Both the position numbers and the translations under genes were made by a program. Below the pieces are notes generated by a model. That model searched no databases, was not told the origin of the DNA, and saw only the letters and a list, made by a program, of their open reading frames with translations. A stretch of DNA of 34,457 nt from Gammaproteobacteria bacterium (GTDB taxonomy: Bacteria > Pseudomonadota > Gammaproteobacteria > Steroidobacterales > Foliamicaceae): the NCBI GenBank assembly GCA_028821145.1, contig JAPPHC010000066.1:1-34457 (forward strand), written 5' to 3'. This document shows positions 5,441-23,062 of the stretch, piece after piece (position 1 is the stretch's first letter; every line of letters starts with the position of its first letter).

Positions 5441-5450
5441 CCGGCTTCGC

Positions 5451-8400
5451 CTAGAACCTTCTGGCCAGCGAAAGGAAGGCGCGCCGGCCCAGCAGGTCAT
5501 AGCCCGCCCCGAGAGGTATGTTGTTCAACTGGACTTCCGGCGCACCGGGGTCCATCAGGGGAGGCTCCTTGTCGAACAGGTTGACCACTCCGAGCGTGAC
5601 CGACCAGTCGCGCGGCTCCCATGTCACCGAGGCGGTGTGCGTCCAGTAGGAGTCGGTCCTCGCGATGGGACGGCAAAGGACGGACAGCGTGTCGCAGGGA
5701 GCGCCCTCGAAAAACTCGCCGGGGTCGTCGTATTCGCCGTGTATGTAGTTGGCCCGCCAGTTCAGGCGGAAGTCCCCGTAGCTGGCGAACAGCAGCGCCG
5801 TGCCTTCCCACTCCGGCGCAACCGGCGTGCCGGCGTCGTCTTCCTCATCGTCGCCGAATACGAACTTGTTCTCCAGCAGACGCGTAACCCGCAGGTCCAG
5901 CTCCAGGTTCAGGTTCCGGTCGAAGACAACGAAGTCGCGCTGGAAATACAAGTTGTAGTCGATGCCCCTGGAGGTAATGGCGTTGATGTTGATGAAGCTG
6001 GCGTCGACCTCGTCGATCAGGCCGTTGGCGCCGCGCCTGATGAACCGGCAGAAGGCGCTCGTGTTGTCGGGGTTTTCCACGTAGCAGTCGTTGACGATGA
6101 AACCGGTGCCCAGCAGGCTGATCGTGTCCTCCACATGCACGTCGTAATAGGTCACGCCGGCGCGCAGGATGAAGTTGTCCCAGAAGGGCTGGTCCAGGAC
6201 CACGCCGTAGGTATAGGACGTCGAGGTTTCCGGGTCGATATCAAGCTGGACCTGCTGGCCGCCCCTGCGGATACGCTCCACGGAGTACGTCGTATTGAAT
6301 CCGTCCAGTCCCAGCATGGTCGGGTCCACGCCCTGCGCCCGGCAGTTGTCGAGCGTTTCCTGCTCGCGCCGGTCGTCCTCGGGATTGTAGGTGGCCGGTT
6401 CATTGGGGTTCAGCGATTCGGTCCGGGCCGCGATCGGCACCACGCAGGGGTCGAAAATGGTGGCGAAGCCGGAAGTGCCGGCCAGGAACTGCTCGTGCGT
6501 GTTCGGCGCGCGGAACGAGGTGCCGTAGGTACCCCGGAAGCTTATGCCGGTAACCGGCGTATAAACGGTCTTGGCGCTGTAGGTAGTGTCGCTCCCGTAG
6601 GTGCTCTCCTCGGTCCAGCGAAGCGCGAGGTTCAGGGAAAGTTCCTCCGCAAGGCTGACGCCCTCGAGCAGTTGCAGTTCGGTTTCGAAGAACAGTTCGG
6701 TGATGTCGCGCTTGCCCACCGCTCCGCCATCCTTGAAGAAGGCGATCAGGAGTCCCTCGCGGGCCACGTCGTTGGGCACGGAGTTGATTTCGTCCTCCCG
6801 GTACTCGAGGCCCAATACCAGGGGAATGGGCGTATTGTTCCACGGCAACAGGGCCAGATCGCCCTGCAGTATTCCGCTGAATATCGACTGGTAGATTTTG
6901 GTGTCGAAGGTGCGCACGCCGAAAACGTAATCGCGCTCCTCCGGCGTTGCGAAATCGCCCCCTCCGGGTTTATACAGTGAGCCGGCGAACATGTTCACGG
7001 GCACGCAGGGCTGGCCGTTGCCGCAGGTGATTTCCCCGGTGACGGGGTCCATGACCGAGGTCTCCAGCGAGAAAGTCAGTTCAGGCTCCAGAATGCCGGT
7101 CTGGAAATCGGTGCCGTTCGAAGACGAGTGGCTGAAGTAGAAGTCGTAACCCCAGTTGCCGAACCCCGAGTCGTTCCGCCAGCCCGGCAGATCGCCGCGC
7201 ATTCCCGCCACGGCGCGGATCTGCGAGATCTCCACGTCGTTGTTGTCCCGGTCCCCGCGCACGGCAAGGATTGGCGTTACCTCGAAGTTTCCGAAGTTGA
7301 AGCCGAAAAAGCCCAGACAGTTCGCGCCGTTGGGCTGGAACTGGTTGCAGGGGTTGTAGGGATTGCTTGCCGGCACGTCGGGGAAGATCTGCGCGCCGGG
7401 CGAAAAAACCACCGTCTTCCGATTGGCGTACAGCACCTCGAAATACGCCTGCGAATTGCTGGCGTTGCCCAGGTCATGCTCGCCGTAGGCGTAGAAATTG
7501 ATGCGCTCGGAGCCCGGAATGAGGTCGCCGGCGCGGTCGCGTTCCGAACCGTTGTAGTTCCAGGCGTCCGTCTGCAGGTCGATCTCCGACATGCCGTTGC
7601 GGTCCGGATCGACGAGTCCGGTATCGGGAATGCCGTCGCTGTCCTGGTCGATCGGCACGATGGCGGCCGGATTGAACCGAGTGAACCCCACCGGGACCTC
7701 GGTTTCGGAGAAGTTGGGGACCCCGATGTTCGTTTCGCCCGGCGTGTACCAGATGTTGCCGAAGCCGACCGGCACGAACACCCGGTTGATGGTCGACAAC
7801 CGGCAGGGGCTCAAGGTCGTCCCGGGCACCAGGCCCAGCAGGTTGCTCAGCGGATTGCCGTTCTCGTCCTCGTAGAAGTAACGGTCGCAGCGCTCGGTAT
7901 AGGCCCGGTCGCGCAAGCGGACCCGCTGGCGTCTGTAGTATTCGGCGGCGACTCCGAAGGTCCAGTTGTCGGCGGTCCTGCCCCAGGCAATCCCCAGGGT
8001 CTGTTCCGAGCCTCCGGTGGCGTCGGTCTCCTCCAATATCGCTTCGAATTCCGGACCCTCGAAGTCCTTTCTCATGATCACGTTGGCCACGCCCGACACC
8101 GCGTCCGATCCATAGATGGACGACGCGCCGTCAAGCAGAAACTCGATCCGGTCGATCATCACGTTGGGAATCGTCGAGAGGTCCGGCGAGGTCGGTGCGC
8201 CGCCGACTCCGCCCGGCGCCAGACGCCGGCTGTTGAGCAGGAGCAGCACGCGCTCCGCGCCCAGGCCGCGCAGGTTGATCTGGGCGGCGCCCGGACCGTT
8301 GTCCACGACAAAGGCGGTAAAGGTGCTGTCGATCTGCGTGCCGGTGGCCTGGGTAGCGCTCTGCAGCAGCGAGGCCGTGTCGATCAGGCCCAGTTCGCGG

Positions 8401-8606
8401 GAAACCTGCCCGTCGATGATCTGGACCGGCGCGGCGGTTGAAAACTCGTCGCGCCGGATTCGCGAGCCGGTCACGACGATTTCATCCATCGCCTCCTCTT
8501 CCAGGACGGCATCGCCGGTTTCGTCTTGCGCCTCGTCCTGTTGTGCATGCAGACCTTGCGTCAACGCCAGCGCCAGAATCAGCGGCATCAAGCGAAATGG
8601 CCTCAT
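5451..8606 (-). CDS. TonB-dependent outer-membrane receptor 1
   Basis: This large receptor (1051 residues) would import a ligand across the outer membrane using TonB-ExbBD energy. It has a signal peptide (about residues 1-22, ending LHAQ), a TonB-box-like DEIVVTGSR at 41-49 and a plug domain with INLRGLGAERVLLLLNSRR and IEFLLDGASSIYGSDAVSGV. A beta-barrel follows, ending in the outer-membrane C-terminal pattern LSLARRF. Long loops contain several cysteines and a DQDSDGIPDTG segment like a calcium-binding type-3 repeat. The start at 8606 was chosen because it begins the signal peptide and a GAGGGGGG ribosome-binding stretch lies just upstream. The ligand is unknown; the S9 peptidase 10 bp downstream suggests peptides. 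Confidence 0.93.
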   Translation of the reverse strand: MRPFRLMPLILALALTQGLHAQQDEAQDETGDAVLEEEAMDEIVVTGSRIRRDEFSTAAPVQIIDGQVSRELGLIDTASLLQSATQATGTQIDSTFTAFVVDNGPGAAQINLRGLGAERVLLLLNSRRLAPGGVGGAPTSPDLSTIPNVMIDRIEFLLDGASSIYGSDAVSGVANVIMRKDFEGPEFEAILEETDATGGSEQTLGIAWGRTADNWTFGVAAEYYRRQRVRLRDRAYTERCDRYFYEDENGNPLSNLLGLVPGTTLSPCRLSTINRVFVPVGFGNIWYTPGETNIGVPNFSETEVPVGFTRFNPAAIVPIDQDSDGIPDTGLVDPDRNGMSEIDLQTDAWNYNGSERDRAGDLIPGSERINFYAYGEHDLGNASNSQAYFEVLYANRKTVVFSPGAQIFPDVPASNPYNPCNQFQPNGANCLGFFGFNFGNFEVTPILAVRGDRDNNDVEISQIRAVAGMRGDLPGWRNDSGFGNWGYDFYFSHSSSNGTDFQTGILEPELTFSLETSVMDPVTGEITCGNGQPCVPVNMFAGSLYKPGGGDFATPEERDYVFGVRTFDTKIYQSIFSGILQGDLALLPWNNTPIPLVLGLEYREDEINSVPNDVAREGLLIAFFKDGGAVGKRDITELFFETELQLLEGVSLAEELSLNLALRWTEESTYGSDTTYSAKTVYTPVTGISFRGTYGTSFRAPNTHEQFLAGTSGFATIFDPCVVPIAARTESLNPNEPATYNPEDDRREQETLDNCRAQGVDPTMLGLDGFNTTYSVERIRRGGQQVQLDIDPETSTSYTYGVVLDQPFWDNFILRAGVTYYDVHVEDTISLLGTGFIVNDCYVENPDNTSAFCRFIRRGANGLIDEVDASFININAITSRGIDYNLYFQRDFVVFDRNLNLELDLRVTRLLENKFVFGDDEEDDAGTPVAPEWEGTALLFASYGDFRLNWRANYIHGEYDDPGEFFEGAPCDTLSVLCRPIARTDSYWTHTASVTWEPRDWSVTLGVVNLFDKEPPLMDPGAPEVQLNNIPLGAGYDLLGRRAFLSLARRF

Positions 8607-9031
8607 GATCACCCCCCTCTTTTTGTTCTCTCCACCGCGCTCCCGGCAAGCGTTTACGGTTCCGGCGGCTTCGTCACGCCGATGGTAATGCACTCTGCCC
8701 AAGTAGTTATCTTTCGCCTCCCAAGGCTGCGATAGCGCATCGGCAATGAAATACTTTCGGGATGCGAATGCTTTCGAAGTTCGCGTATGCGTAATGTTTC
8801 TAAAGGACGTATCGCTTTCGATTCTCGATTGCCTGCAGAGAAAGATGGGAGGGCGGGACGCCCTCCCGCCCTGCGATCTTGCCTACATTCCTGCGTTTGG
8901 CGGCTTCGCTTGTGATAAAGTGCCCCACCATACGGATACGGGTAAACGGCAAGGTTTGCCTGTTTCCATCAATGCGACCGTGCGGTGTGGGTGCCACACC
9001 CGCCCGCGCAATTACCAGTGAGGGGACAAAG
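8607..9031 (+). other. Divergent intergenic region between the two TonB receptor genes
   Basis: This 425-bp gap must hold the start signals of both receptor operons. It contains four copies of CTTTCG on the plus strand (8711, 8754, 8771, 8815), three of them preceded by an AT-rich triplet. A GC-rich pair of alternative hairpins lies at 8842-8880, and a 7-bp hairpin GGTGTGG-GTG-CCACACC at 8984-9000 lies shortly before the ribosome-binding site of receptor 2 (AGGGGA, 9021-9026). No convincing sigma-70 promoter was found by eye in either direction. An open frame on the plus strand at 8746-9021 looks like chance. Confidence 0.6.
8842..8880. repeat. GC-rich REP-like hairpin with two alternative stems
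   Basis: GGGAGGGCG (8847-8855) pairs with CGCCCTCCC (8859-8867) across a 3-nt loop. Alternatively GGGCGGGA (8851-8858) pairs with TCCCGCCC (8864-8871) across 5 nt. The two stems share bases, so they exclude each other. AAGAT (8842-8846) and ATCTT (8876-8880) form an outer pair. No T-tract follows, so it is not a simple terminator. Confidence 0.6.
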
Positions 9032-11770
9032 ATGAAACCTGAGAATAATGCTCTGGAGAGAGCAGTGCGTTCGGTACTTTTCACCGGCGCAATCACGGCC
9101 TTCGCCGTCTCGCCGATGGCCATGGCCCAGGAGGAGGGCGACGAAGACGAGGACCAACTGGAACTCGGACGCCAGGTGGTCACCGGATCGCGCATCAAGC
9201 GCATCGACCTCGAGGAAGCCCGACCCGTAGTGGTCATCACCCGCGAAGAGATCGAGTTGAGCGGCCAGGAATCGGTGGCCGACGTGCTCCGCAACAGCCC
9301 GGTCAACACCTTCGGCTCTTCGCGCGAAGTGTCCGGCAATTCGTTCGTCGGACAGGCGACCATAAGCCTGCACGGCATCGGCTCCACCCGCAGCCTCGTG
9401 CTGCTCGACGGGCGGCGGGCGCCGCGCTCGCCGGTCACCGCCAACCAGGCGAATGACCTGAACATCATTCCGCTTTCCGCGGTGGACCGCATCGAGATCC
9501 TGACCGACAGCGCTTCGGCGATTTACGGTTCGGATGCGATCGCCGGCGTGATCAACGTCATTCTGCGGAAGGACTACGACGGTCTGGAAGTGGGCACGTC
9601 GCTGCAGCGCCCGACGCGCGAGGGGGCGGACTCGGACGCCGGCGTGATCACTCTTGGCGGCAGCACCAATCGCGGCCGTTTCCTGTTCACGGCCGACTTC
9701 CGTAACAAGGGGCACATCGCCTCCAAGGACCGCTTCTACTCCGCGGGAAATCTCGGCTACGACGAAGGTCCGGTGGACTTCCCGGACGCGCCGTTTGAGG
9801 CTACCTGGTACGCCTGGGAGAACACGGACAACGTCAGTTCCTGGGGCAACACCATCTGGCCGCTGTATCGGATTCCGTCGAATTGCGAGACGGTGGTGGG
9901 CCCGGACGGCGAGCGCTTGCTGGCAGGTCCCTATGTCGCCGCCAATGGACAACAGCGCTGCGGTTTCGACTACACCGCGTTCTCCTGGGAAACGGCGGAT
10001 CTCAAGCGCACCAGCGCGTTCCTGCACGCGGACTATGAACTGAACCCGGACCATGCGGTGCGCTTGCAGTCCATGTTCAGCACCATAAACAACCAAGGCC
10101 GGTATGCCCCCGCCGTGGGCTTTTTCCGCATCCCGGCGGATGCAGCGGAGTCATTGAAAGCGAACTTTGATTACGACGTCCCTTACGCGGAAAGGCTTCC
10201 GTACTTTCTGGGCCATCGCTTCATAGGGCTGGGCAACCGGAATTTCAAGGCTACCAACACCCTGTTCGAGAACGCCGTTCTGGCGTATGGAACCGTCGGC
10301 ATGTTCGATTACGAGTTCGAAGCGCGACACACGCGCTACGACGGGCGCGAGGACAGCTGCTGCTACGCGAAATCGTTTACGGCGTCCCAGTATGTTGCTC
10401 AGGGACTGTACAACCCGTTTGATCCCTTGAGTGCGGGTAACGCGTCCGCGTATGACGCTATTACCTCCAATGCGAACCGCGACATCCGCGCCGACTTCCG
10501 CACCTACAGCGGAAACGTGAGCTTCGACTTTCTCAACGCTCCGGGCGGCCCGGTTGGCTGGGCCGTCGGCTTCGATTACATCGACGAGCAGTTCTACGAC
10601 ATCTACGATCCGCTGAGCGCCGGCGGCGACCTGATCGGCAGCGCCGGCAACAGCGGCGAGGGCGAAAGAGTCGTGAAGGCGGCCTTTACGGAAGCCTTGA
10701 TCCCGTTGTGGAACACCCTGGAAGTCAGCGCGGCGGCGCGTTATGACAGTTACGACGATGCGGCCGGCAACGAAACCAGCATTTATCTCTCGGCGCGCTA
10801 TCAGCCGACCGACTGGCTGCTGTTCCGCGCTTCCTGGGGCGAAGGCTTCAGGGCCGCCAACATGAACAATCTGTATGGCGCCCGGAGTTTCAGCGCCGAA
10901 GGCGGGACCGACCTGGTGCAGTGTCAGCGCGCCGGAGTGAGCCCGGAGAATTGCGTGGAGGAGCAATACGCCACATATACCGGCGGCAACCCGCTGCTCG
11001 CGCCGGAGCTGTCGGACAGCTACAACATCGGCGTCGTCGTGGACTGGGAGCCGATTACGGCCAGAGTGGATTTCTGGAGCCTGGATCTCGAAGACGGCAT
11101 CGGCCTGGCGTCCCTGCAGGGACTGATCGAAGCGGAACTGCTGGGTCAATGCGCGAACACAGGAAGGACGGAGAACACCATCCAGACGGGTTCGCTTGCG
11201 GAAATCATCGAGTGTTCACCCGGTAACGTCCTCAAGCGCGATCCGACTTCCGGCGCATTGATCGAAGCCGAAGCGGGCTGGGGCAACACCTTCAAGCAGG
11301 AAATCGGCGGACTGGACGTGCAACTGCGCTACGATCTCGAAACGGCGACGGCGGGCGATTTCACGTTCGCCCTGTACGGCGCCCGCTTGCTGCGCTACCG
11401 CAGCCTGTCGCGCACGGCCACGGAATGGAGCTCCAGCCTCGGCGAGGGCGTGGGCGACAGCGCAAGGCCCAAGTACCAGGCCCAGGGCCTGGTGCGTTGG
11501 AACTACACCGACCACACGGTCTCGGTGTATGCGCGACACATCGCGGGCTACATACGCCCCGACGCCGGGTTCGAGGCGCCTTCGCACACGGAGTACGACC
11601 TGATCTACCGCTGGACCACGCCGTGGGACGGCCGCGTCACGATCGGCGTGCTGAACGTCACCGACGAGGATCCGGAGATTGACAGCTTCGCATCCCCGCG
11701 TCCTGCCGTATATGACCTGTACAGCCTGGACGGGCGCGTTCCGTACGTGAGCTACCGCCACTTCTTCTGA
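9032..11770 (+). CDS. TonB-dependent outer-membrane receptor 2
   Basis: This second TonB-dependent receptor (912 residues) points away from receptor 1. The signal peptide spans about residues 1-33 (hydrophobic VLFTGAITAFAVSPMAMAQ), followed by an acidic linker EEGDEDEDQ. The TonB-box-like QVVTGSRIKRI and the plug follow, with ITREEIELSGQESVADVLRN, GIGSTRSLVLLDGRR and VDRIEILTDSASAIYGSDAIAGVINVI patterns, then a barrel ending VSYRHFF. The ATG at 9032 is preferred over an upstream in-frame start because it begins the signal peptide and follows AGGGGA (9021-9026). It resembles receptor 1 in plug organisation but the loops differ strongly, so the two probably take different ligands. Downstream are two tandem hairpins, then an S9 peptidase gene. 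Confidence 0.92.
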   Translation: MKPENNALERAVRSVLFTGAITAFAVSPMAMAQEEGDEDEDQLELGRQVVTGSRIKRIDLEEARPVVVITREEIELSGQESVADVLRNSPVNTFGSSREVSGNSFVGQATISLHGIGSTRSLVLLDGRRAPRSPVTANQANDLNIIPLSAVDRIEILTDSASAIYGSDAIAGVINVILRKDYDGLEVGTSLQRPTREGADSDAGVITLGGSTNRGRFLFTADFRNKGHIASKDRFYSAGNLGYDEGPVDFPDAPFEATWYAWENTDNVSSWGNTIWPLYRIPSNCETVVGPDGERLLAGPYVAANGQQRCGFDYTAFSWETADLKRTSAFLHADYELNPDHAVRLQSMFSTINNQGRYAPAVGFFRIPADAAESLKANFDYDVPYAERLPYFLGHRFIGLGNRNFKATNTLFENAVLAYGTVGMFDYEFEARHTRYDGREDSCCYAKSFTASQYVAQGLYNPFDPLSAGNASAYDAITSNANRDIRADFRTYSGNVSFDFLNAPGGPVGWAVGFDYIDEQFYDIYDPLSAGGDLIGSAGNSGEGERVVKAAFTEALIPLWNTLEVSAAARYDSYDDAAGNETSIYLSARYQPTDWLLFRASWGEGFRAANMNNLYGARSFSAEGGTDLVQCQRAGVSPENCVEEQYATYTGGNPLLAPELSDSYNIGVVVDWEPITARVDFWSLDLEDGIGLASLQGLIEAELLGQCANTGRTENTIQTGSLAEIIECSPGNVLKRDPTSGALIEAEAGWGNTFKQEIGGLDVQLRYDLETATAGDFTFALYGARLLRYRSLSRTATEWSSSLGEGVGDSARPKYQAQGLVRWNYTDHTVSVYARHIAGYIRPDAGFEAPSHTEYDLIYRWTTPWDGRVTIGVLNVTDEDPEIDSFASPRPAVYDLYSLDGRVPYVSYRHFF

Positions 11771-11777
11771 TCGAAAT

Positions 11778-11816
11778 ACGGATCGGTTACCGCTTCCAAA
11801 CCGGTAACCGATCCGT
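11778..11816 (+). repeat. 15-bp perfect inverted repeat after TonB receptor 2
   Basis: ACGGATCGGTTACCG (11778-11792) and its exact reverse complement (11802-11816) flank a 9-nt loop. It starts 8 bp after the receptor stop and is followed by an AT-rich but not T-rich stretch. It could be a first terminator hairpin, an mRNA 3'-end stabiliser or a protein-binding palindrome. Confidence 0.7.
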
Positions 11817-11828
11817 TACAATTTAACG

Positions 11829-11866
11829 GGCCGCCGGCACCCCCCGCGCCGGCGGCCTTTCTTTTT
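11829..11866 (+). terminator. Rho-independent terminator downstream of TonB receptor 2
   Basis: GGCCGCCGGC (11829-11838) pairs perfectly with GCCGGCGGCC (11848-11857) across a 9-nt loop. It is followed at once by TTTCTTTTT (11858-11866). This is a textbook intrinsic terminator, implying that the following S9 peptidase gene has its own promoter. Confidence 0.88.
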
Positions 11867-12002
11867 CCGCCGAAGGGATTAGGCTGGTGAGCCCGACGCA
11901 AGGGGCGGCGGTCATTAAGCATGGAAAGGCGTTAGAATCACGAAAACAAACGAAAGGCGCCGGAACGCGCGCCGACGATAAGACTACATACGGGAGCGGT
12001 TC

Positions 12003-14009
12003 ATGAAGGCAACAATCAAAAGCAGCCTGTTTCTTGCGATTTTCCTGCTCGGAAGCGGCGCCCAGGCGCAACAGGCAAAACAGTATCCAGTCAGCGATTT
12101 CTTCAAGAATTCGGAGTTCGCCTCGCTGCGGCTGTCGCCGAACGGTGAATGGCTGGCCGCCCTGGGACCGTACGAAGGCCGTCGCAACCTGTTCACGATG
12201 CGCCTGTCCGACAAGGCCGCCGCGCGCCTGACGAGCTTCGAGAGCAAGGGCCGGGACGACGCCAACCGGGACGTGGCGTTTTTCTTCTGGGCCAACGACG
12301 AGCGGCTCATCTTCGGCCTGGACTCGGCCGGCAACGAATCGTTCTCGTGGTTCGCCGTGAACCGCGACGGCACGAAGGGGCGGACCCTGGTCGAGGGCTC
12401 TACCGGCATCGTGCTCTTCCCCACCAACACCCGATTGCTCAGCCGGCTGGATCACGATCCCGAGCACGTGCTGGTGACGAACAACGAGCGCAACAAGTTC
12501 TATCCCGATGTGTTCCGGCTGAACGTGTACACGGGAAGAATGTCGCGGATCGAGACCAATCCCGGGCATTTCCAGGGTTACGGCGTGGACTGGGACGGTA
12601 ACGTGCGCCTCGCCGTGGGGCATCCCGACGCCACCGGACGAGCGCTGAGGGAAGGGGAGCTGCTGAAGCAGAACCTGTATTACCGGGCAACGCCGGACAG
12701 CGACTGGAAGATCGCGCATTCCACGCACTATTTCGACGGCCCGGTCTTCGCGCCGCTGGCTTTCGCGGCGGACAACAGGACCCTCTACGTATCGACCAAC
12801 GAGGGCCGCGACACCTCGGCCATCTACACCTTCGATCCCGAGACCGGCGAATTGGGCGAGCTGATCCTCGCCGACGACCGCGCGGATCTGACCGGCCTGT
12901 CGCTCTCTCCCAAGGACCATCGGCCGCTGTGGGTTTCCTGGCAATACGAACTGCCGGAAAAGGTCATGCTGGACGAGGAGTTCGCGGCGCTTCAAGCCAC
13001 GATCGACGACGCCTTCCCCGACAGGGTGAACAGGATCACCAGCATGAGCGACGACGAGAACCGGGCGATCATCTACTCGGGAAGCGACCGTGATCCGGGA
13101 ACGTACTATCTGTACGACAAGTCGGCGGGCACGCTCGAATTCTTCGCCCGGCCCCGTCCGTGGATCGAGCCGGACGACATGAGCGAAATGACGCCGGTTC
13201 GCTACGAGGCACGCGACGGTGAGACGATCCACGCTTATTTGACCGTGCCGGCCGGCAGCGAGGCGCGGGATCTTCCGCTGATCATCAATCCGCATGGCGG
13301 TCCCTATGGCATCCGGGATTTCTGGGGGCACAACAGCGAGACGCAGTTCCTGGCCAACCGGGGTTATGCCGTGATGCAGATCAACTACCGCGGCTCCGGA
13401 GGTTACGGCCAGCGCTTCCTCGATATCGCCTGGCAGAAGTGGGGCCTGGAAATGCAGGACGACATCACCGACGGCGTGCTGTGGGCGATCGGGCAGGGCA
13501 TCGTCGACCCGGACCGGGTGTGCATCTACGGCGGCAGTTACGGCGGCTACGCCACGATGGCCGGAATCACCAAGACTCCCGACCTCTACCAGTGCGCCGT
13601 CAACTATGTCGGCGTCGTCGACCTCATTGCGCTGCTGGACTACCATCACCGGTTCCGCAACGGCGACTTCATTCAGGCCTGGGGCAAGCGCGCCATCGGC
13701 GACCGCAGGGCGGACCGCGAGCGGCTGCTGGCGACCTCGCCCATCAACCATCTCGACAAGATCAAGGTGCCGCTGTACGTGGTGCACGGCAAGCGCGATC
13801 CGAGGGTACCGCACGACACACAGTACGTGCCGTTGGTGCGCAAGCTGAGGGGAACCGAAATCGACTACAAGACGATGCTCAAGAACAAGGAAGGCCACGG
13901 TTTCCGCAAGGAGGAGAACCGCATCGAGCTCTACACAGAGCTCGAGAAGTTCTTCGCCCAGCACATCGGCGGACGCAGTTCCCAGGTGGCCGCTGCCGGG
14001 GCCCGATAA
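12003..14009 (+). CDS. S9 family (prolyl oligopeptidase-type) serine peptidase 2, secreted
   Basis: This 668-residue secreted peptidase has a signal peptide (MKATIKSSLFLAIFLLGSGAQAQ) and the same architecture as S9 peptidase 1: an N-terminal propeller (residues about 30-390) and a C-terminal alpha/beta hydrolase. The triad reads as Ser512 in YGGSYGGYATM, Asp599 in HGKRDPRVP and His632 in EGHGF. Shared landmarks such as WANDERL, RYEARDG and the EMQDD helix mark the two as paralogues, but identity outside the core is low. GGGAG at 11992-11996 gives a good ribosome-binding site. A TAGAAT at 11933-11938 is a possible -10. A terminator separates it from receptor 2, so unlike S9 peptidase 1 it is transcribed independently. 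Specificity is unknown. Confidence 0.91.
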   Translation: MKATIKSSLFLAIFLLGSGAQAQQAKQYPVSDFFKNSEFASLRLSPNGEWLAALGPYEGRRNLFTMRLSDKAAARLTSFESKGRDDANRDVAFFFWANDERLIFGLDSAGNESFSWFAVNRDGTKGRTLVEGSTGIVLFPTNTRLLSRLDHDPEHVLVTNNERNKFYPDVFRLNVYTGRMSRIETNPGHFQGYGVDWDGNVRLAVGHPDATGRALREGELLKQNLYYRATPDSDWKIAHSTHYFDGPVFAPLAFAADNRTLYVSTNEGRDTSAIYTFDPETGELGELILADDRADLTGLSLSPKDHRPLWVSWQYELPEKVMLDEEFAALQATIDDAFPDRVNRITSMSDDENRAIIYSGSDRDPGTYYLYDKSAGTLEFFARPRPWIEPDDMSEMTPVRYEARDGETIHAYLTVPAGSEARDLPLIINPHGGPYGIRDFWGHNSETQFLANRGYAVMQINYRGSGGYGQRFLDIAWQKWGLEMQDDITDGVLWAIGQGIVDPDRVCIYGGSYGGYATMAGITKTPDLYQCAVNYVGVVDLIALLDYHHRFRNGDFIQAWGKRAIGDRRADRERLLATSPINHLDKIKVPLYVVHGKRDPRVPHDTQYVPLVRKLRGTEIDYKTMLKNKEGHGFRKEENRIELYTELEKFFAQHIGGRSSQVAAAGAR

Positions 14010-14072
14010 GCGCAGGCGGGTCCGGCCGGCGGCCAGACCTTACAATTCAGCGTTTTCCTGGGTGCCGGGCAA

Positions 14073-15101
14073 GTGGACGCAAAAAAACTTGAACGGCTGC
14101 GCGAAAGGTACGGGCGGCCGGACGGAGACCTGAAGGCGGATGTGCCCTTCAGGGAAGCGCTGAAGCAGGTTTTCGACAGCGACCTGCACCAGAAGAAGCC
14201 GTACGGCGATCCGCCGACGCTGCTCGATTTCCCCCACAGCGAGGACTGGACCGGGCTGGATACAGCCCTGATAGGCGTGCCGATGGACCTTGGCGTCACC
14301 AACCGGCCCGGGGCGCGTTTCGGCCCAAGGGCGCTGCGCGCGATCGAGAGGGTCGGTCCCTACCACCCCACCTACAACCTCGTTCCCGCCAACGTGCTTC
14401 ATTGCGCCGACGTGGGCGACGTGCCGTTTCGCTCGCGCTTCAGCCTCGAGAAAAGTATCGAGGACATAGAGGCCTTCTACGCGAAAATCGCGGCCGCCGG
14501 ACTCAAGCCGATCTCCGCCGGCGGCGATCATTCAATCACCTACCCCATCATGAAGGCGCTGGGCGCCGAAGCGCCTTTAGGCATGGTGCACATCGACGCC
14601 CACTGCGACACCGCTGGCCCTTACGACGACGAGAAATTTCATCACGGCGGCCCTTTCCGCCTGGCGGTGCTGGACGGCGTGCTGGACCCCGACCGCTGCG
14701 TGCAGCTCGGCGTTCGCGGCAGCGCCGAACTGGCCTGGGCCTTCAGCTACGATTCCGGAATGACCGTCATCCACATGGACGATTTCCATGACATGGGGCT
14801 GCCCGCCGTGATATCGCTGTGCCGTGAGAAGGTCGCTGGCGGGCCGGTTTACGTAAGCGTAGATGTCGATGGAATCGACCCTGCCTATACTCCCGGAACA
14901 GGCACTCCCGAGGTCGGGGGGCTGACGCCGCTGGAGGCGCAACGCCTGCTGCGCGGTCTTGCGGGACTGCCCGTAGTGGGCGGCGACCTCGTGGAGGTGG
15001 CGCCCCAGTATGATCCTTCAGCGAACACCGCCCATGTGGGCGCCACCATGATGTTCGAGATACTCGGCCTTCTGGCCGACCTCAAGGCGAACGGCGGCTG
15101 A
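14073..15101 (+). CDS. Ureohydrolase, agmatinase/guanidinobutyrase family
   Basis: This 342-residue manganese ureohydrolase would cleave a guanidino compound to an amine plus urea in the cytoplasm. The binuclear metal site is intact: His153 in GGDHS, Asp175/His177/Asp179 in HIDAHCDT, and Asp264/Asp266 in SVDVDGIDPAYTPGTGTPE. The GGLTPLEAQRLLRGL segment and the DLVEVAPQYDPS ending are typical of agmatinase, guanidinobutyrase and guanidinopropionase rather than true arginase. An N-terminal extension of about 60 residues precedes the catalytic fold. The substrate cannot be decided from sequence. The start is a GTG at 14073 with a weak ribosome-binding site; a TACAAT (14041) may be a -10. Its stop overlaps the next ATG by one base (TGATG). 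Confidence 0.88.
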   Translation: MDAKKLERLRERYGRPDGDLKADVPFREALKQVFDSDLHQKKPYGDPPTLLDFPHSEDWTGLDTALIGVPMDLGVTNRPGARFGPRALRAIERVGPYHPTYNLVPANVLHCADVGDVPFRSRFSLEKSIEDIEAFYAKIAAAGLKPISAGGDHSITYPIMKALGAEAPLGMVHIDAHCDTAGPYDDEKFHHGGPFRLAVLDGVLDPDRCVQLGVRGSAELAWAFSYDSGMTVIHMDDFHDMGLPAVISLCREKVAGGPVYVSVDVDGIDPAYTPGTGTPEVGGLTPLEAQRLLRGLAGLPVVGGDLVEVAPQYDPSANTAHVGATMMFEILGLLADLKANGG

Positions 15102-17029
15102 TGGCCGGCTCCCGGTCAACGCAAGACCACGTCAAGAGCCTTCTCGACGGCGCGATCTCGCGGAGGCAGTTCGGCAAGGCGCTGGCGGCGATCGGCTTTT
15201 CCGCCGCGGCGGCGGAATCGCTGACGCGGATGATTTCCGAGGCCGACGCCCAGACCCTGCCGGCGGAACGGGGCCGGAGCGTCGAGGGAACAGGCGCCGA
15301 AGTCCTCGTGGAAGCCTTGTTGGCGGCGGGCGTGGAGTACCTGTTCGCAACCACGGCGACAGGCATGACCGCGATCTTCGACGCGCTGGCCTCGCGGCCG
15401 CAACTCAAGTTCCTGCTGACCCTGCAGGAAGGCCAGGCGACGGCGATGGCGCACGGCTACGAACTGGCCAGCGGCAGGACCGCGGTCCTGCTGGTGCCCG
15501 GCGTCGCGGTTCCGTCGGCGATGAACAACCTCTACAACGCCTGGAAGGACCGCTCCGCGATCGTGGCCATTTCCGACTCGTCGCAGACCACCTTCGGGGG
15601 CCGCAACCAGTTCCAGCAGATGGACGACTGGCTGGAGCCGCTGCAGCAATTCACCAAGTGGCGCTGGCAGATCAATCGGCCGGAGCGGATCAGCGAGTTC
15701 ACCCGGCGCGCGATCAAGATGGCGGGAACTCCGCCGGGCGGCCCCGTGCACCTGCGCATCCCCATCAATGTCCTGGGCGAGCCCAAGCTCAAGCAGACCG
15801 TCTATCCCCAGCAGCTGTTTCGGGTTGACGTCAATCTGCCGCCGAAACCCGAGCTGCTCGAATCGGCGGCGCGGACCCTGCTGGAGTCGAACGCGCCCTT
15901 CATCAACGTCGGACACGAAGTGACGCGCAGCGGCGCGGTGGACGACGTGGTGCGGCTTGCCGAGAAGCTCGGCGCCCGCGTCAGCCAGGGCTATTCCGTC
16001 TATGGCGACTTTCCCTTCAAGCACCCGTTGTGGGCCGGGTTCTATGGACTGGGCGCCCCGAAACACCTGGGCCGGAGCGATGTCTTTCTCAACCTGGGCA
16101 CGGAAATGCCCGGCCCCGGGATCCTCGCGCCTTCGCCGCCGAGGAAGGCGACCGTCATTCACGCGCGCATGGAATACGAAGACATCGGCAACTTCCAGCC
16201 GACCGATATCGCCCTGGCCGGCGGCATCCGGGAAATCACCACCGCGCTGATCGACGCCATCGAGGGGATGGCTACCCGCGAACGGCTGGCAAAGCTTAGC
16301 GAACCCCGGATGGATGCCGCCCGGGAGGAATTCGCGAAGCGCCTGGAGGAGCAGCGCAAGACGGCCGAAGAGGACTGGAACGCGGCGCCCATCAGCTGGG
16401 CGCGCATGGCCTGGGAACTCGACCGGCACCTGGCAGAAGACGCGATCGTCGTCTCCGAACTCGACAACCGACTTCCCTATCACTGGATGGATTTCGCGCC
16501 CGGCAGGAAACGGCTGATCGGCCAGACCACGGGGTTCGCGCTGGGCTGGGGCGTGGGCGCCGCGCTGGGCGTCAAGGTGGCCCAGCCGGATCGGCAGGTC
16601 GTCTGCCTGGTCGGCGACGGCGCCTTCCTGTTCGGTCAGACGGAAGCGCTATGGGCGGCCGCGCGCCACGACATTCCGATCACCATCGTGGTGTTCAACA
16701 ACGAATCCTACGACGGCGAGCGGGAGCGCATCTACTGGTTCTCGCCGCTGGCCCGCAATCGCCAGACCCGCGACCAATGGAAGGACATCAGCTGTTATCT
16801 CGGCGATCCGCTGGTCGATTTCGCCGCCGTTTCACGGGCGTTTGGAGTAGAGGCCGAAACCGTGCTGGAACCGGCCGGAATGGAAGCCGCCCTGCAACGG
16901 GCGCAACTCGTCAACAGGGAGGGCGGAGCCTACCTGATCGACGCCCGGATCATGCAGCAGGGGCACGGCGCCAATTCCACCTGGCACCCGGACATCTCCA
17001 TCGCCCGCAACAGAAAACGCCTGATCTGA
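15101..17029 (+). CDS. Thiamine-diphosphate-dependent enzyme (acetolactate synthase/decarboxylase superfamily) with Tat signal
   Basis: This 642-residue protein has the three-domain plan of 2-oxoacid decarboxylases and acetolactate synthases. The N-terminal pyrimidine-binding domain has the catalytic Glu110 in LLTLQEGQATAMAHGYE, a middle domain spans about 250-400, and the C-terminal domain has the ThDP motif GDG (505-507) ... NN (533-534). In front is a canonical twin-arginine signal: SRRQFGK at residues 20-26, a hydrophobic ALAAIGFSAAAA, and a plausible cleavage site ADA|Q at 50/51. A cofactor-bound protein exported folded would need Tat, so a periplasmic location is likely. The reaction is unknown; known relatives include AruI (2-ketoarginine decarboxylase), benzoylformate decarboxylase and acetolactate synthase. 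It is translationally coupled to the ureohydrolase gene. Confidence 0.87.
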   Translation: MAGSRSTQDHVKSLLDGAISRRQFGKALAAIGFSAAAAESLTRMISEADAQTLPAERGRSVEGTGAEVLVEALLAAGVEYLFATTATGMTAIFDALASRPQLKFLLTLQEGQATAMAHGYELASGRTAVLLVPGVAVPSAMNNLYNAWKDRSAIVAISDSSQTTFGGRNQFQQMDDWLEPLQQFTKWRWQINRPERISEFTRRAIKMAGTPPGGPVHLRIPINVLGEPKLKQTVYPQQLFRVDVNLPPKPELLESAARTLLESNAPFINVGHEVTRSGAVDDVVRLAEKLGARVSQGYSVYGDFPFKHPLWAGFYGLGAPKHLGRSDVFLNLGTEMPGPGILAPSPPRKATVIHARMEYEDIGNFQPTDIALAGGIREITTALIDAIEGMATRERLAKLSEPRMDAAREEFAKRLEEQRKTAEEDWNAAPISWARMAWELDRHLAEDAIVVSELDNRLPYHWMDFAPGRKRLIGQTTGFALGWGVGAALGVKVAQPDRQVVCLVGDGAFLFGQTEALWAAARHDIPITIVVFNNESYDGERERIYWFSPLARNRQTRDQWKDISCYLGDPLVDFAAVSRAFGVEAETVLEPAGMEAALQRAQLVNREGGAYLIDARIMQQGHGANSTWHPDISIARNRKRLI

Positions 17030-17038
17030 CTTCCCAGG

Positions 17039-17896
17039 TTAGCGGAGCCGCGAAAGCAGGCTCTGAAGTTCGTCGAGGCTCTTGTAGCGCACTTCCAGAC
17101 GCCCTCCGCGCTTGCCGTGGCGAATGCGCACGGGAGCTCCCCAGCGCTCGCTCAAGTCGCGCTCCAGGCTGACGACGTTCGGGTCGCGCGGCGCCTGTGT
17201 CTTCGCCGGCCGGCCTTCCGCCTGCGCCAGGCGCTCCGCTTCGCGGACGGTCAGCCCTTTCTCGGCGATCAGCCGCGCCAGCGCGGCCTGCCGGGCCGGA
17301 TTCGCCACAGCCAGCAACGCGCGACCGTGTCCCATTTCCAGCTTGCGCTCGGCCAGCAGCTTCCTGGCCGTATCGCCAAGTTCGAGCAGCCTCAGGTGGT
17401 TGCTGACCGCGGCGCGCGACATGCCGATCGATCTGCCCACGTCCTTGTGGGTGCCGCCCGAAATTTCCAGAATCGCACGCAGCGCGCGGGCCAGTTCCAT
17501 GGCGCTCAGGTCCTCTCGCTGAACGTTTTCGACCAGGGCCGCGAGCGCGGCCTCGGCGTCGGACAGTGCCCGCACGACGGCCGGTACGCTTTCCAGGCCT
17601 GCATGCTGGGCCGCCCGCCAGCGGCGTTCGCCGGCGACAATCTCGTACCGCGCCAGCGAATCACCTCCCCCATCGACAGGTCGCACCAGCACAGGCTGAA
17701 CGACACCCTGGGCCCGTATGGATTCGGCCAACTCGGCAATGCGTTCGGGGGCCATGGCCTGGCGCGGCTGAAAGCGCCCCGGCCGCAGCAGGTCCAGCGG
17801 CAGTTCCCTGAGATCGCGCTCCGCAGCTTGCGGCTCCCGCCGAGGCCCCAGCAAAGCCTCGAGCCCGCGCCCCAGTCCCCGGTTGGGAGTGGCCAT
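17039..17896 (-). CDS. parB: ParB chromosome-partitioning protein
   Basis: ParB binds parS sites, loads CTP, spreads as a clamp and organises the origin region for segregation with ParA. It has 285 residues, a normal length. An N-terminal RGLGRGLEALLG ParA-contact motif is followed by the CTP-binding GERRWRA (89-95) and ENVQRED (123-129) boxes, a helix-turn-helix (about 150-172, THKDVGRSIGMSRAAVSNHLRLL) and a C-terminal dimerisation domain. The ATG at 17896 shares one base with the parA stop (TAATG). It is the last gene of the long minus-strand block and ends 9 bp from the convergent ThDP enzyme gene. Confidence 0.96.
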   Translation of the reverse strand: MATPNRGLGRGLEALLGPRREPQAAERDLRELPLDLLRPGRFQPRQAMAPERIAELAESIRAQGVVQPVLVRPVDGGGDSLARYEIVAGERRWRAAQHAGLESVPAVVRALSDAEAALAALVENVQREDLSAMELARALRAILEISGGTHKDVGRSIGMSRAAVSNHLRLLELGDTARKLLAERKLEMGHGRALLAVANPARQAALARLIAEKGLTVREAERLAQAEGRPAKTQAPRDPNVVSLERDLSERWGAPVRIRHGKRGGRLEVRYKSLDELQSLLSRLR

Positions 17897-19355: not shown

Positions 19356-21164
19356 TCATGCCCGCCCGGCCGCGATCGCTTCCGCGCGGTGGCAGGCCAC
19401 CATTCCGTGCGAAAGCCTGCGCAGCTCCGGCGTTTCCTGCCGGCAGCGGTCAACCGCGTAAGTGCAGCGCGCCGAGAACGCGCATCCCGGTGGCGGGTTC
19501 AGCGGCGACGGCGGTTCTCCCTGAAGCAGTTCGCGCTTTCGGGAGCGCTCCACCTGCGGGTCGGGAATCGGCGCGGCTTCGATGAGCGCTCTGGTATAGG
19601 GATGCATGGGCCGGGCGTACAGCTGCCCGCTGTCGGCGATTTCCATCGCCCGGCCCAGGTACATCACCACGACCCGGTGACTTATCTGGCGCACGACCGC
19701 CAGGTCGTGGGCGATGAATATGAGCGCCAGCCCAAGCTCGTCCTGAAGTTCCATCAGCAAGTCCACAATCTGCGCCCGGATGGACACGTCCAGAGCGCTG
19801 ACCGCCTCATCGCAGATCACGACCGCCGGGCCCGGCGCCAGTGCCCGGGCGATCCCGATCCGCTGGCACTGGCCGCCCGAGAACTCGTGCGGATACCGAT
19901 CCAGTTGCCCGTCCTTCAGGCCCACGCGGTTCAATATCCTGACCACCCGCTCGCCGCGCTCGGCCCTGGATAGGTCGGGCCGGCAGGCGCCCAGCGGCTC
20001 GGCGACGATCTGCCGCGCGGTCATGCGCGGATTCAGGGAGGCCAGAGGGTCCTGAAAAACCATTTGCATATTGCGACGCGCAGCCATCCAGGCCTTCTTG
20101 TCGGCGTCCTGCAGATCGCCTCCCAGCAATGTCACGCGCCCGGCGCTGGGCGGAACCAGCCCGATGACCGCACGCGCCAGGGAAGACTTGCCGCAGCCCG
20201 ACTCGCCCACGACGCCCAGCGTTTCCCCGGGCGAAATCGTGAAAGTCCCGGTCGTAACCGCCTTGAGCTTCGGCCTGGGGGCGAACAGCCGCGGGCGATT
20301 CAGGGAATAAACGACGTCCAGGCCCTCGACGTCCAGAACGGGCTCGGCGCCGGCGGCCCTCCTGCCGCGCGGGCGGGCGTCGCGGTCCAGCCGGGGGACG
20401 GCGGCCAGCAGGCGTCGCGTGTAAGGATGCCCGGGGGCGGCATAGACCCGATCCACGCTGCCGCGCTCCTTGCACTCGCCGTCCTGCATGACCAGCACGT
20501 CGTCGCAGAAGCCGGCGACCACGCCGAGATCGTGGGTAATGAAAATGATGGCCGCGTTGAAATCGCGCCTGAGTTCCTGCATCAGCGTAAGTATCTGCGC
20601 CTGCACCGTTACGTCCAGCGCGGTGGTGGGCTCATCGGCAATCAGCAGCGCGGGTGTGCACAGCAACGCCGTGGCGATGGTCACCCGTTGGCGCATGCCG
20701 CCGGACAACTCATGCGGCCAGGATTGAAGACGCTTGCCGGCGTCCGGTATCCGAACCGCCTCCAGCAGCTCCCCGCACCGCCTGAGCGCCTGCCGACGGC
20801 TCATGCCCTCGTGCAGTTCCAGCACCTGCGCCATCTGCACGCCGATCCTCAGATACGGGTTCAGCGAAGTCATGGGGTCCTGGAAGATCATCGCGATGCG
20901 GTTGCCACGAATGCCGCGCAGATCGCGATCGGCCATGCCGATCAGTTCGCGGCCCTCGAACCGGGCGCTTCCCGTACTGCGGCCGTTGTCGGCCAGCAGG
21001 CCCATGAGACTCAGCACCGTCTGGCTCTTGCCCGAACCGGACTCTCCCACGATGCCCAGGGTCCTGCCCGCCTCCAGGTCGAAATCTATCCCTCGCACGG
21101 CATGCACGACGCCGTCCGGCGTGCCGAAATCGACCTTGAGATCGCGGACCGAGATCAGGGACAT
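19356..21164 (-). CDS. Oligopeptide ABC transporter, fused double ATPase (OppD-OppF type)
   Basis: This single 602-residue protein carries two complete ABC ATPase domains that power peptide import. Domain 1 has Walker A GESGSGKS (40-47), signature LSGGMRQR (153-160) and Walker B LLIADEPT. Domain 2 has Walker A GESGCGKS (320-327), signature FSGGQCQR (428-435) and Walker [13 protein letters not shown]. The C-terminus has the oligopeptide-transporter extension with a Cys cluster ([17 protein letters not shown]). In E. coli OppD and OppF are separate, whereas GsiA and YejF are fused like this one. The stop of oppC immediately precedes its ATG and its own stop immediately precedes rsmG, so it sits in a continuous operon. 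Confidence 0.94.
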
Positions 21165-22067
21165 TCAGGCGCTCCTGTCGCGCGGGTCCAGCGCGTCGCG
21201 CAGCCCGTCGCCGATGAAATTGCAGCAGAACAGCGTGGCGGCCAGGAACCCGGCAGGAAAGATCAGCGTCCAGGGAGCGTTTTCGAGTTCCTTGGCCCCT
21301 TCGTTCACCAGCGCTCCCCAGGACGTCATCGGTTCCTGCACGCCCAGCCCCAGGAAACTCAGGAAAGACTCCACCAGGATCACCTGCGGGATCGTGAGCG
21401 TTACGTACACGACCACCACGCCGAACAGATTGGGGACGATGTGCCGCCGGATGATCCGGGGCGTGGACACGCCGGCCGCCTGGGCGGCCTCGACGAATTC
21501 GCGGCGCTTGATGCTCAGGGTCTGGCCGCGCACGATGCGCGCCATGTCCAGCCAGTTAATGGCGCCGATGGCCACGAAGATCAGCGCGATGTTGCGTCCG
21601 AACAGCACCATCAGCAGGATCACCAGGAACATGAAGGGCATCGCATAGAGGATGTCCACGATGCGCATCATCACCTGGTCCGTCCTTCCTCCCAGGTAGC
21701 CCGCCAGCGCGCCGTAGCTGATGCCGATGACGAGGCTCACCGCCGTCGCCACCAGGCCCACCATCAGCGAGATGCGGCCTCCGACCAGCGTGCGCACGAA
21801 CAGGTCCCTGCCGAGATCGTCGGTGCCGAACAGATGCCAGCCCTCCAGCGAGGGGGGGACCGATACGTAGTCCCAGTCGAGATAATCGAATTCCACGGGC
21901 GTCAGGGCCGGACCGAAGACACACAGGACTGCCACGACAGCCAGGATCGCCGCGGCGGTCATCGCGGCCCGGTTGCGGCGCAAGGCCCTCCATGCGTCGC
22001 TCCACAAGCCGCGGCCGCCACCCGCCGCCTGCCGGATCGCCGCACGGTTTGGACTGGTCTTCCTCAC
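21165..22067 (-). CDS. oppC: Oligopeptide ABC transporter permease OppC
   Basis: This is the inner-membrane permease partner of OppB. The 300-residue protein has an N-terminal cytoplasmic tail, a first membrane segment AAILAVVAVLCVFGPAL, the conserved HLFGTDDLGRDLFVR block, five further hydrophobic segments and the EAA-loop region EAAQAAGVSTPRIIRRHIVPN that contacts the ATPase. It ends DALDPRDR, typical of OppC. The start is a GTG at 22067 with no strong ribosome-binding site. It lies 20 bp downstream of oppB. Confidence 0.94.
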   Translation of the reverse strand: MRKTSPNRAAIRQAAGGGRGLWSDAWRALRRNRAAMTAAAILAVVAVLCVFGPALTPVEFDYLDWDYVSVPPSLEGWHLFGTDDLGRDLFVRTLVGGRISLMVGLVATAVSLVIGISYGALAGYLGGRTDQVMMRIVDILYAMPFMFLVILLMVLFGRNIALIFVAIGAINWLDMARIVRGQTLSIKRREFVEAAQAAGVSTPRIIRRHIVPNLFGVVVVYVTLTIPQVILVESFLSFLGLGVQEPMTSWGALVNEGAKELENAPWTLIFPAGFLAATLFCCNFIGDGLRDALDPRDRSA

Positions 22068-22087
22068 GACTTGGCGCTCACGACCTG

Positions 22088-23026
22088 TCAGTTACGTTGA
22101 CGGACCCTTGGGTCAAGCAGGCCATAGCAGATGTCCACGAGGAAGTTGAACAGGATGATCAGCACTCCGTAGAAAACGACGACGCCCATGACCAGGGTGT
22201 AGTCCCGGTTGAGCGCGCCCTGCACGAAATGGCGACCCAGGCCGGGTACGCCGAAGATCTGCTCGACCACCACCGAGCCCGTGATGACGGCCGCCGTCGC
22301 GGGGCCCAGATACGAAAGCACCGGCAGCAGCCCGGGCTTGAGCGCATGCCGCAGCAGGATGGTGGACTGCGCCAGACCCTGTGCGCGCGCCATGCGGATG
22401 AAATTGCTGCGCAGCACCTCGATCATGCTGCCGCGTGTAAGCCGGGCGATATAGGCGATCTGCGGCAACGCCAGGGCGATGACCGGCATCACCATGTTGG
22501 GCAGCCGGGCAAGCAACCCCTCGGTGGGCCAGCCGCCCGCCGGTAACCAGTCGAGGTGCACCGCGAATGCCAGGATCAACAGCGGTCCGACCACGAAGTT
22601 GGGGATCGAGATCCCCGTCATGCTGGCGGCCATCACCGCGTGGTCTGACGGGCGGTTCTGTCGCAACGCCGCCCAGCCCCCGGCCGTCACGCCAACCAGC
22701 AGGGCCAGCAGCATGGCGCAGGCCCCGAGCTGCAGCGATACCGGAAACCCTTCGCGGATCAGTTCGGTCACGCTGCGGTCGATGTACTGGAAGGAGGGGC
22801 CGAAGTCGCCCTGCGCCAGCCCCTGGAGGTAGCGGTAGAGCTGCTGATACAGCGGCTCGTCGAGATGATAGGCCGCGCGGATCTTGGCCTCGATTTCCGG
22901 ATGAAGCGTTTTCTCGGTGTCGAACGGGCCGCCGGGCGCGGCGCGAATCATGAAGAACGCCAGTGCGATGAGGATCAGCAGCGTAGGGATCGCCGCGAAG
23001 ACCCGCCTTAAGGCGTAACGGAACAT
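22088..23026 (-). CDS. oppB: Oligopeptide ABC transporter permease OppB
   Basis: This inner-membrane permease of 312 residues is strongly like enterobacterial OppB. It has an N-terminal membrane anchor YALRRVFAAIPTLLILIALAFF, then RAAPGGPFDTEK, YHLDEPLYQQ and GDFGPSFQYIDRSV. Later come SMTGISIPNFVVGPLL, the EAA loop (MARAQGLAQSTILLRHALKPG) and the ending LLDPRVR. It forms the membrane channel with OppC and is energised by the fused ATPase. Its start lies 36 bp after the oppA stop. Confidence 0.95.
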   Translation of the reverse strand: MFRYALRRVFAAIPTLLILIALAFFMIRAAPGGPFDTEKTLHPEIEAKIRAAYHLDEPLYQQLYRYLQGLAQGDFGPSFQYIDRSVTELIREGFPVSLQLGACAMLLALLVGVTAGGWAALRQNRPSDHAVMAASMTGISIPNFVVGPLLILAFAVHLDWLPAGGWPTEGLLARLPNMVMPVIALALPQIAYIARLTRGSMIEVLRSNFIRMARAQGLAQSTILLRHALKPGLLPVLSYLGPATAAVITGSVVVEQIFGVPGLGRHFVQGALNRDYTLVMGVVVFYGVLIILFNFLVDICYGLLDPRVRQRN

Positions 23027-23062
23027 CCGCGCATCATAACGGCCGGAACACCGCGCCGCCTG

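Follow-up and report, generated by a model that had tools for sequence, protein, structure and literature searches.

The gene for a ureohydrolase without a signal sequence runs directly into that of a thiamine diphosphate (ThDP) enzyme that carries what looks like an export signal, and the locus raises the question of whether the two proteins serve one pathway or merely share a message. It lies in a stretch of 34,457 nucleotides (hereafter the window), the entire contig JAPPHC010000066.1 of a 66% complete gammaproteobacterial assembly (GCA_028821145.1). Our reading, to which we give a probability of roughly 0.6, is that the ThDP protein is an uncharacterised exported enzyme, possibly redox-linked, and that it has been hitched locally to a cytoplasmic guanidino-acid hydrolase. 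The point of interest is the probably exported ThDP family with its cytochrome neighbours, which may point to a type of enzyme outside the inner membrane that has yet to be described. An earlier sequence-only reading of this DNA had proposed a guanidino-compound pathway split across the inner membrane; the gene arrangement that it described is real, and its interpretation is right in part.

An overlapping gene pair

The features of the pair are as follows.

14073..15101, + strand: ureohydrolase assigned to the guanidino-acid hydrolase group; 342 residues, GTG start, Pfam Arginase 280.5 bits
15099..15103, + strand: TGATG stop/start overlap (TGA 15099-15101, ATG 15101-15103, common base 15101)
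15101..17029, + strand: ThDP protein of an uncharacterised family, probably exported; 642 residues, ATG start, Pfam TPP_enzyme N, M and C
15101..15250, + strand: N-terminal extension read as a twin-arginine translocation (Tat) signal; SRRQF at 15158-15172, hydrophobic region (h-region) ALAAIGFSAAAA, putative cleavage between ADA and Q (residues 48-51)
15428..15430, + strand: Glu110 of the ThDP protein, invariant in 38 of 38 aligned sequences and aligned with Glu47 of benzoylformate decarboxylase
16613..16702, + strand: GDG...NN motif for ThDP and Mg binding, residues 505-534, from the family alignment (A2)
Within the ureohydrolase, + strand: metal-ligand motifs GGDH (residue 150), DAHCD (175) and DVDGID (264), aligned with the structures 3nip and 3nio

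As a member of the Arginase family the ureohydrolase is complete, and none of the three TPP domains is missing from the ThDP protein. The sequence-only reading had the stop of the first gene and the start of the second sharing one base, as they do, and took the two proteins to be produced together. Within the genus translational coupling is supported, the TGATG junction being kept in all seven genomes that have both genes, including two (G001 and G005) with an in-frame repeat insertion. The start codon of the ureohydrolase is GTG in all nine genus copies. Both genes are under purifying selection, with a mean ratio of nonsynonymous to synonymous substitution rates (dN/dS) of 0.079 for the ThDP gene (21 within-genus pairs) and 0.100 for the ureohydrolase (36 pairs).

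The repeat is palindromic (GGAGGGCGGGACGCCCTCC with a GAAGGCG partner) and is found at 5371-5455 of locus L052 and 7911-8001 of L053. In G001 and G005 it stands directly after the ATG of the ThDP gene, making the N-terminus about 25 residues longer. A copy of its first motif, GGAGGGCGGGACGCCCTCC, lies upstream of a TonB-dependent receptor gene, at 8848-8866 of the window.

An N-terminal extension that is probably a Tat signal

The N-terminus of the ThDP protein reads MAGSRSTQDHVKSLLDGAISRRQFGKALAAIGFSAAAAESLTRMISEADA followed by Q, and the SRRQFGK motif, hydrophobic stretch and ADA/Q site described by the sequence-only reading are present as it stated. The Tat signal that it recognised there is probable and is conserved in the ThDP family. 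A contig scan yielded 49 loci of this family, of which 47 (L051-L097) were kept and the distant L098 and L099 left out. An N-terminus is available for 47 members, namely those of 44 of the 47 loci together with the window, G002 and G006, and 45 of them, the window's protein included, have a twin arginine (S/T-R-R in 43, G-R-R in two). The family alignment has 38 rows, with R21 in all 38, R22 in 36 and A50 in 30, while position 24 is Phe in 34 and Leu in four. In 31 of the 38 the twin arginine is followed by Phe or Leu, a stretch rich in Ala and Gly, and A-x-A; in sequence with much Ala such a pattern is a loose one.

Within the genus, dN is 0.029 over alignment columns 20-48, 0.020 over the enzyme body and 0.133 over columns 1-19. 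Columns 20-48 are thus under almost the same constraint as the body of the enzyme, which we count for export. TatC is encoded in all nine genus genomes. Across 0.97 Mb of loci the signal pattern is found in the ThDP family only, which left no exported protein of known kind to calibrate it on; used as a profile, the extension gives weak matches elsewhere in relatives, with a best E-value of 2.9e-5. Tat export of the ThDP protein is supported by these sequence comparisons, not proven, and export and the cleavage site, like the redox role discussed below, are what we infer.

To our knowledge, ThDP enzymes are treated as cytoplasmic. Among the matches listed from the open-licence literature (titles and the starts of abstracts), no exported or periplasmic ThDP enzyme was found.

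Relation to known ThDP enzymes

The ThDP protein matched 60 NCBIfam models, and the best 25 of the 60 all scored below their own cut-offs. Its AlphaFold model has a predicted local distance difference test score (pLDDT) of 87.1. The protein has the fold and the ThDP-binding residues of benzoylformate decarboxylase (MdlC), and its Glu110 is aligned with the MdlC residue Glu47, which we take to be the one that activates ThDP. It differs from MdlC, and from the HKA synthase BbmA, in its export-like N-terminal extension. A further difference from MdlC concerns His70 and His281, presumably catalytic residues: read by eye from the alignment, the place of the first is position 133, Pro in 32 of 38 rows (Pro133 here), and that of the second is the variable position 340 (Gly 11, Ala 10, Thr 10 and Ser 5 of 38).

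Two known pathways pair a ThDP enzyme with a ureohydrolase. One is the arginine transaminase pathway, with AruI; the other is clavulanate synthesis, with CeaS and the ureohydrolase Pah. AruI belongs to the same ThDP superfamily, but the protein described here has an export-like signal and no adjoining aminotransferase gene, and by NCBIfam it is not AruI-like, its score on PRK07524 (5-guanidino-2-oxopentanoate decarboxylase) reaching 143.9 bits where the cut-off is 500. CeaS does not appear in the list of the ThDP protein's 60 best PDB matches, and, unlike in the clavulanate system, the ureohydrolase is not close to Pah in our tree and no beta-lactam synthetase gene adjoins. A route from taurocyamine through a sulfoacetaldehyde-type ThDP step was likewise dropped, the ThDP protein scoring 184.6 against a model cut-off of 676.4. 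E. coli PoxB, formerly called 'pyruvate dehydrogenase (cytochrome)', depends on flavin adenine dinucleotide, works at the cytoplasmic face of the membrane and reduces quinone; the present family, in contrast, is probably exported and lies in part beside cytochrome c genes.

Cytochrome c genes beside the ThDP gene

The comparison of loci revealed something that the sequence-only reading could not see. A cytochrome c-type neighbour, defined as an open reading frame with a hydrophobic N-terminus and a CxxCH motif, on the same strand and at most 90 nucleotides from the ThDP gene, is present in nine of the 47 members (L074, L075, L077, L084, L090, L091, L093, L094 and L097). The two genes are closely spaced: the cytochrome lies 24 nucleotides upstream in L074, L075 and L077, is 4 nucleotides away in L090 and 9 in L097, lies 89 nucleotides downstream in L091, and overlaps the ThDP gene by one base in L084 and by 4 in L093. 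In L094 the first possible start of the cytochrome reading frame lies 65 nucleotides inside the ThDP gene, and a later start is likely. A Pfam scan of six neighbours placed those of L075, L084, L090, L094 and L097 above a cytochrome-family cut-off and that of L091 below it; the neighbours in L093 and L029 also exceed the cut-off, and L074 and L077, whose neighbours are identified by CxxCH and the hydrophobic N-terminus, are near copies of L075.

As a control, the 43 loci from outside the genus were searched for such neighbours at all testable genes, those less than 250 nucleotides from a locus end being excluded. Eight of 36 ThDP genes had a neighbour of this kind, as did one of the 200 conserved genes of other kinds; Fisher's p, which takes no account of relatedness, is about 1e-6. 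The eight are those of L077, L084, L090, L091, L093, L094 and L097 and a second copy in L081; L074 and L075 are not among them because of the exclusion. The single match among the other genes adjoins the same cytochrome as the second copy, which belongs to genome G056 (L029 and L081), where a second ThDP-family gene is followed by a cytochrome. On the family tree, the cytochrome neighbours fall on the Acidobacteriota/Eremiobacterota side and on one proteobacterial branch. In L092 a molybdopterin oxidoreductase gene with a sub-threshold Tat match lies downstream of the ThDP gene.

The two ThDP-family genes of G056 (L029 4079-13694 and L081) are 37% and 52% identical to that of the window, and their cluster also holds genes for an M28 peptidase, a cytochrome c and a DUF1838 protein.

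A second ThDP subfamily points the same way. The window's own genome contains another ThDP gene (G000:C56; L121 4030-6410, - strand), about 29% identical, with an NRRDFLSS signal of canonical appearance; its nearest model is PRK08327, below the cut-off. In all four Tat-like members of this subfamily (C56, L017, L018 and L021) the next gene is cytochrome c-like, identified by CxxCH and a signal, at gaps of about 0, -4, -4 and +8 nucleotides. No cytochrome neighbour was found at any of four non-Tat members (L135-L138, their lack of a Tat signal judged by eye) or of nine further ThDP genes that lack a Tat signal. Although the sample is small and contains relatives (L017 and L018 are close), the contrast agrees with the cytochrome association in the first family. 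The second subfamily occurs in four of 398 genomes of the phylum at E <= 1e-60, with a Tat signal in the window's own genome only.

The cytochrome-like gene after the ThDP gene of L121 has a lipobox-like LGC, and TauD-like and alpha/beta-hydrolase-like genes (named by eye) lie nearby.

A proposed mechanism and its alternatives

We propose that the ThDP protein would fold and load ThDP in the cytoplasm and would then be exported to the periplasm by Tat, where it would probably decarboxylate or cleave a 2-oxo or 2-hydroxy-carbonyl substrate. In lineages with an adjoining cytochrome c gene, the ThDP-bound intermediate or the product would probably be oxidised, with the c-type cytochrome as acceptor. 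The ureohydrolase, for its part, would stay in the cytoplasm as a metal-dependent hydrolase that releases urea from a guanidino acid. More tentatively, there may be a class of Tat-exported periplasmic ThDP enzymes in which the oxidation of a 2-oxoacid or aldehyde sends electrons from the ThDP intermediate straight to a c-type cytochrome, with at least two diverged subfamilies in the Pseudomonadota, the first also in the Acidobacteriota and Eremiobacterota. In that case ThDP chemistry outside the inner membrane would form a respiratory entry point. If a conserved exported family with cytochrome c neighbours exists, 2-oxoacid or acyloin chemistry would take place in the periplasm, possibly tied directly to respiration, and 'thiamine pyrophosphate-requiring proteins' of no assigned function would acquire a role.

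Several observations weigh against the redox part of this proposal. In the window's genus the ThDP gene has no adjoining cytochrome gene, so that this branch may have another acceptor or none, and 38 of the 47 members lack a neighbour of this kind within 3 kb; we infer the redox chemistry from neighbours alone. It is conceivable, if somewhat short of an even chance, that the family consists of plain periplasmic decarboxylases or lyases, and that neighbouring dehydrogenases and cytochromes handle the aldehyde product, not the ThDP intermediate. Glu540 occupies what we take to be the place of the proton-relay Glu of pyruvate decarboxylase (alignment by eye), a pyrroloquinoline quinone (PQQ) dehydrogenase gene adjoins the ThDP gene downstream in L082, and aldo/keto reductase and luciferase-like neighbours occur, all of which suits such enzymes. 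In several loci, however, a small cytochrome gene directly adjoins or overlaps that of the ThDP enzyme and no dehydrogenase gene separates the two, the other genes there being partly identified.

Other observations weigh against export itself, and most of them also speak for an alternative that we consider unlikely, in which the extension is a cytoplasmic helical segment (for assembly, chaperone binding or membrane contact) on an otherwise conventional decarboxylase or lyase of the cytosol. In the AlphaFold model the extension forms three short helices, predicted with low confidence. None of five N-termini reaches the Tat model of NCBIfam (best 15.2 against 16.7) or that of Pfam, short profiles of this kind being weak. 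The h-region is weakly hydrophobic (best 12-residue mean 1.0-1.9), and two Eremiobacterota members have SRG despite an adjoining cytochrome. The N-terminal region (n-region) is unusually conserved in comparison with what we take to be usual for a Tat signal and, with an ALGFS stretch, is conserved beyond the needs of a bare signal. Some members also adjoin genes for aldo/keto reductase or ADH_N_2 proteins, which are presumably cytosolic, as is usual for them. Against a cytosolic enzyme stand the signal pattern, loose as it is, in 31 of 38 rows, the cytochrome c neighbours, and the parallel subfamily in which a Tat signal and a cytochrome again go together. The conserved n-region and ALGFS stretch could be accounted for on the side of export, by analogy with another Tat protein whose signal is reported to have a chaperone-binding role (PMC3712460).

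The ureohydrolase and the reach of the pairing

The best PDB match of the ureohydrolase is GpuA (3nip, 286 bits, against 188 bits for Pah). In a tree of five solved references, the genus proteins and homologues from the f13 genomes, the genus and f13 proteins group together (support 95/95) and are joined next by GpuA (84/79, moderate), with GbuA outside. The name agmatinase is doubtful because a branch with 100/100 support separates the ureohydrolase from the solved agmatinases (SpeB 7lol and 4dz4); its score on the agmatinase model TIGR01230 is barely above the cut-off (178.2 bits against 174.3), and it falls below the PRK02190 subfamily cut-off (242.4 against 302). By sequence, then, the protein is placed in the guanidino-acid hydrolase group, on the GpuA side, and not with SpeB or Pah. 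It has the fold family and metal motifs of the 3-guanidinopropionase GpuA and the guanidinobutyrase GbuA of Pseudomonas aeruginosa and of human AGMAT; it differs from all five solved references in its substrate loop after DAHCD, DTAGPYDDEKFHHGGPF, and further differences are the long branch to the genus (1.03) and about 40 extra N-terminal residues. Human 'agmatinase' (AGMAT) has itself been shown to be a guanidino acid hydrolase (PMC9772407). Judged by eye, the ureohydrolase has no signal sequence, in agreement with the sequence-only reading.

In the f13 genomes the ureohydrolase homologue adjoins a diaminopropionate ammonia-lyase gene (L104 5090-8298, L105 5272-8602, L106 4925-7941), and a gene resembling dimethylarginine-hydrolase (DDAH) and a BioA-like aminotransferase gene, the latter named by eye, lie near it. 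A possible role for this cluster is a route from a 2-amino-3-guanidino acid through diaminopropionate.

How far do the two genes travel together? When 58 related genomes were searched at the protein level, the ThDP orthologue turned up in six other genus genomes, with 93-97% identity, and in five genomes belonging to two further families, with 52-55%. The ureohydrolase is present in all nine genus genomes and adjoins the ThDP gene in seven; G003 and G008 keep it, and no ThDP orthologue was found there. In the family loci, tblastn (E <= 1e-3) detected the ureohydrolase in four genus loci and in none of the 43 from outside the genus, several of whose contigs are short. Two genomes (G033 and G044) have both genes on separate contigs, whereas G022, G035 and G056, which are 99, 99 and 96% complete, have the ThDP gene and no ureohydrolase match at E <= 1e-3. 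L055, which the ThDP tree places as closest sister to the genus, has no ureohydrolase within its 16.8 kb. The ThDP family is itself sparse, occurring in four of 369 genomes of the class at E <= 1e-100 (a count that takes in the window's own genome and one non-Tat relative), and a plasmid search returned relatives at 29-30% identity only.

Co-occurrence of the pair thus holds within the genus and fails beyond it. The sequence-only reading had named a lack of conservation outside this genome as refuting it, and that outcome is found one level higher, at the genus. We regard co-transcription as local to the genus, because the pair is found in none of the 43 loci outside and each gene is found without the other. 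In the genus, the ThDP gene probably came to lie, or stayed, behind the ureohydrolase gene, beside parAB, so that both proteins would be made together with neither needing the other. That a guanidino compound is handled by a periplasmic ThDP enzyme and the cytoplasmic ureohydrolase (or in the reverse order) as one pathway across the inner membrane, as the sequence-only reading had suggested, is improbable: the kept junction, the placing of the ureohydrolase among guanidino-acid hydrolases and the upstream TonB receptor and S9 peptidase, which could feed such a pathway, stand against genes that occur singly, a ThDP protein with no AruI-like score and the lack, in the window, of an aminotransferase or dehydrogenase gene next to the two genes. 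What was read as a guanidino pathway is a chance local association or, at the most, an arrangement particular to the genus. No match for a pairing of guanidinobutyrase with ketoarginine decarboxylase was found in the open-licence literature. An explanation from guanidino compounds of sponges stayed a guess and was not used; it was prompted by isolate names (COS2, CO36388 and SB0673) that resemble those of sponge metagenomes, and the creatine degradation potential of sponge symbionts is reported in PMC6742649.

The wider neighbourhood

Three genes frame the pair.

8879..11770, + strand: TonB-dependent receptor (Pfam Plug and TonB_dep_Rec), upstream of the S9 peptidase gene
12003..14009, + strand: S9-family peptidase (Pfam Peptidase_S9, 161.6 bits), ending 63 nucleotides before the ureohydrolase gene
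17039..17896, - strand: parB (Pfam ParB_N), convergent with the ThDP gene across a 9-nucleotide gap

No aminotransferase, aldehyde dehydrogenase or beta-lactam synthetase gene adjoins the pair in the window, as the sequence-only reading had noted; the neighbours are the TonB receptor, the S9 peptidase and parB/parA. The S9 peptidase gene may belong to the same transcription unit as the ureohydrolase, and the true start of the TonB receptor is probably downstream of the listed TTG. A sigma-70 scan of 11600-17400 found no promoter-like site. The downstream order is convergent parB and parA, an rsmG-like gene (named by eye), a peptide-type ABC transporter and mnmG.

The neighbourhoods of G003, G008 and the f13 genomes were compared using heuristic picks of genes and families, not a gene caller. 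In G003 and G008 parB stands directly behind the ureohydrolase gene, again convergent. An S9 homologue is found upstream of the ureohydrolase in G008, without a ThDP gene, and not in G003.

The TonB receptor and S9 peptidase genes form two divergent modules (3464-8702 and 8879-14009) that point apart, as if duplicated and inverted. The peptide-type ABC transporter cluster lies at 19356-24700 of the window, between the rsmG-like gene and mnmG, and its ATPase (named by eye) adjoins the rsmG-like gene in G003 and G008 too. A tyrosine recombinase gene at 409-1323 (- strand; Phage_integrase 171.5 bits) lies near diaminopimelate epimerase and is presumably the chromosomal XerC, not a phage gene, judging from the gene order.

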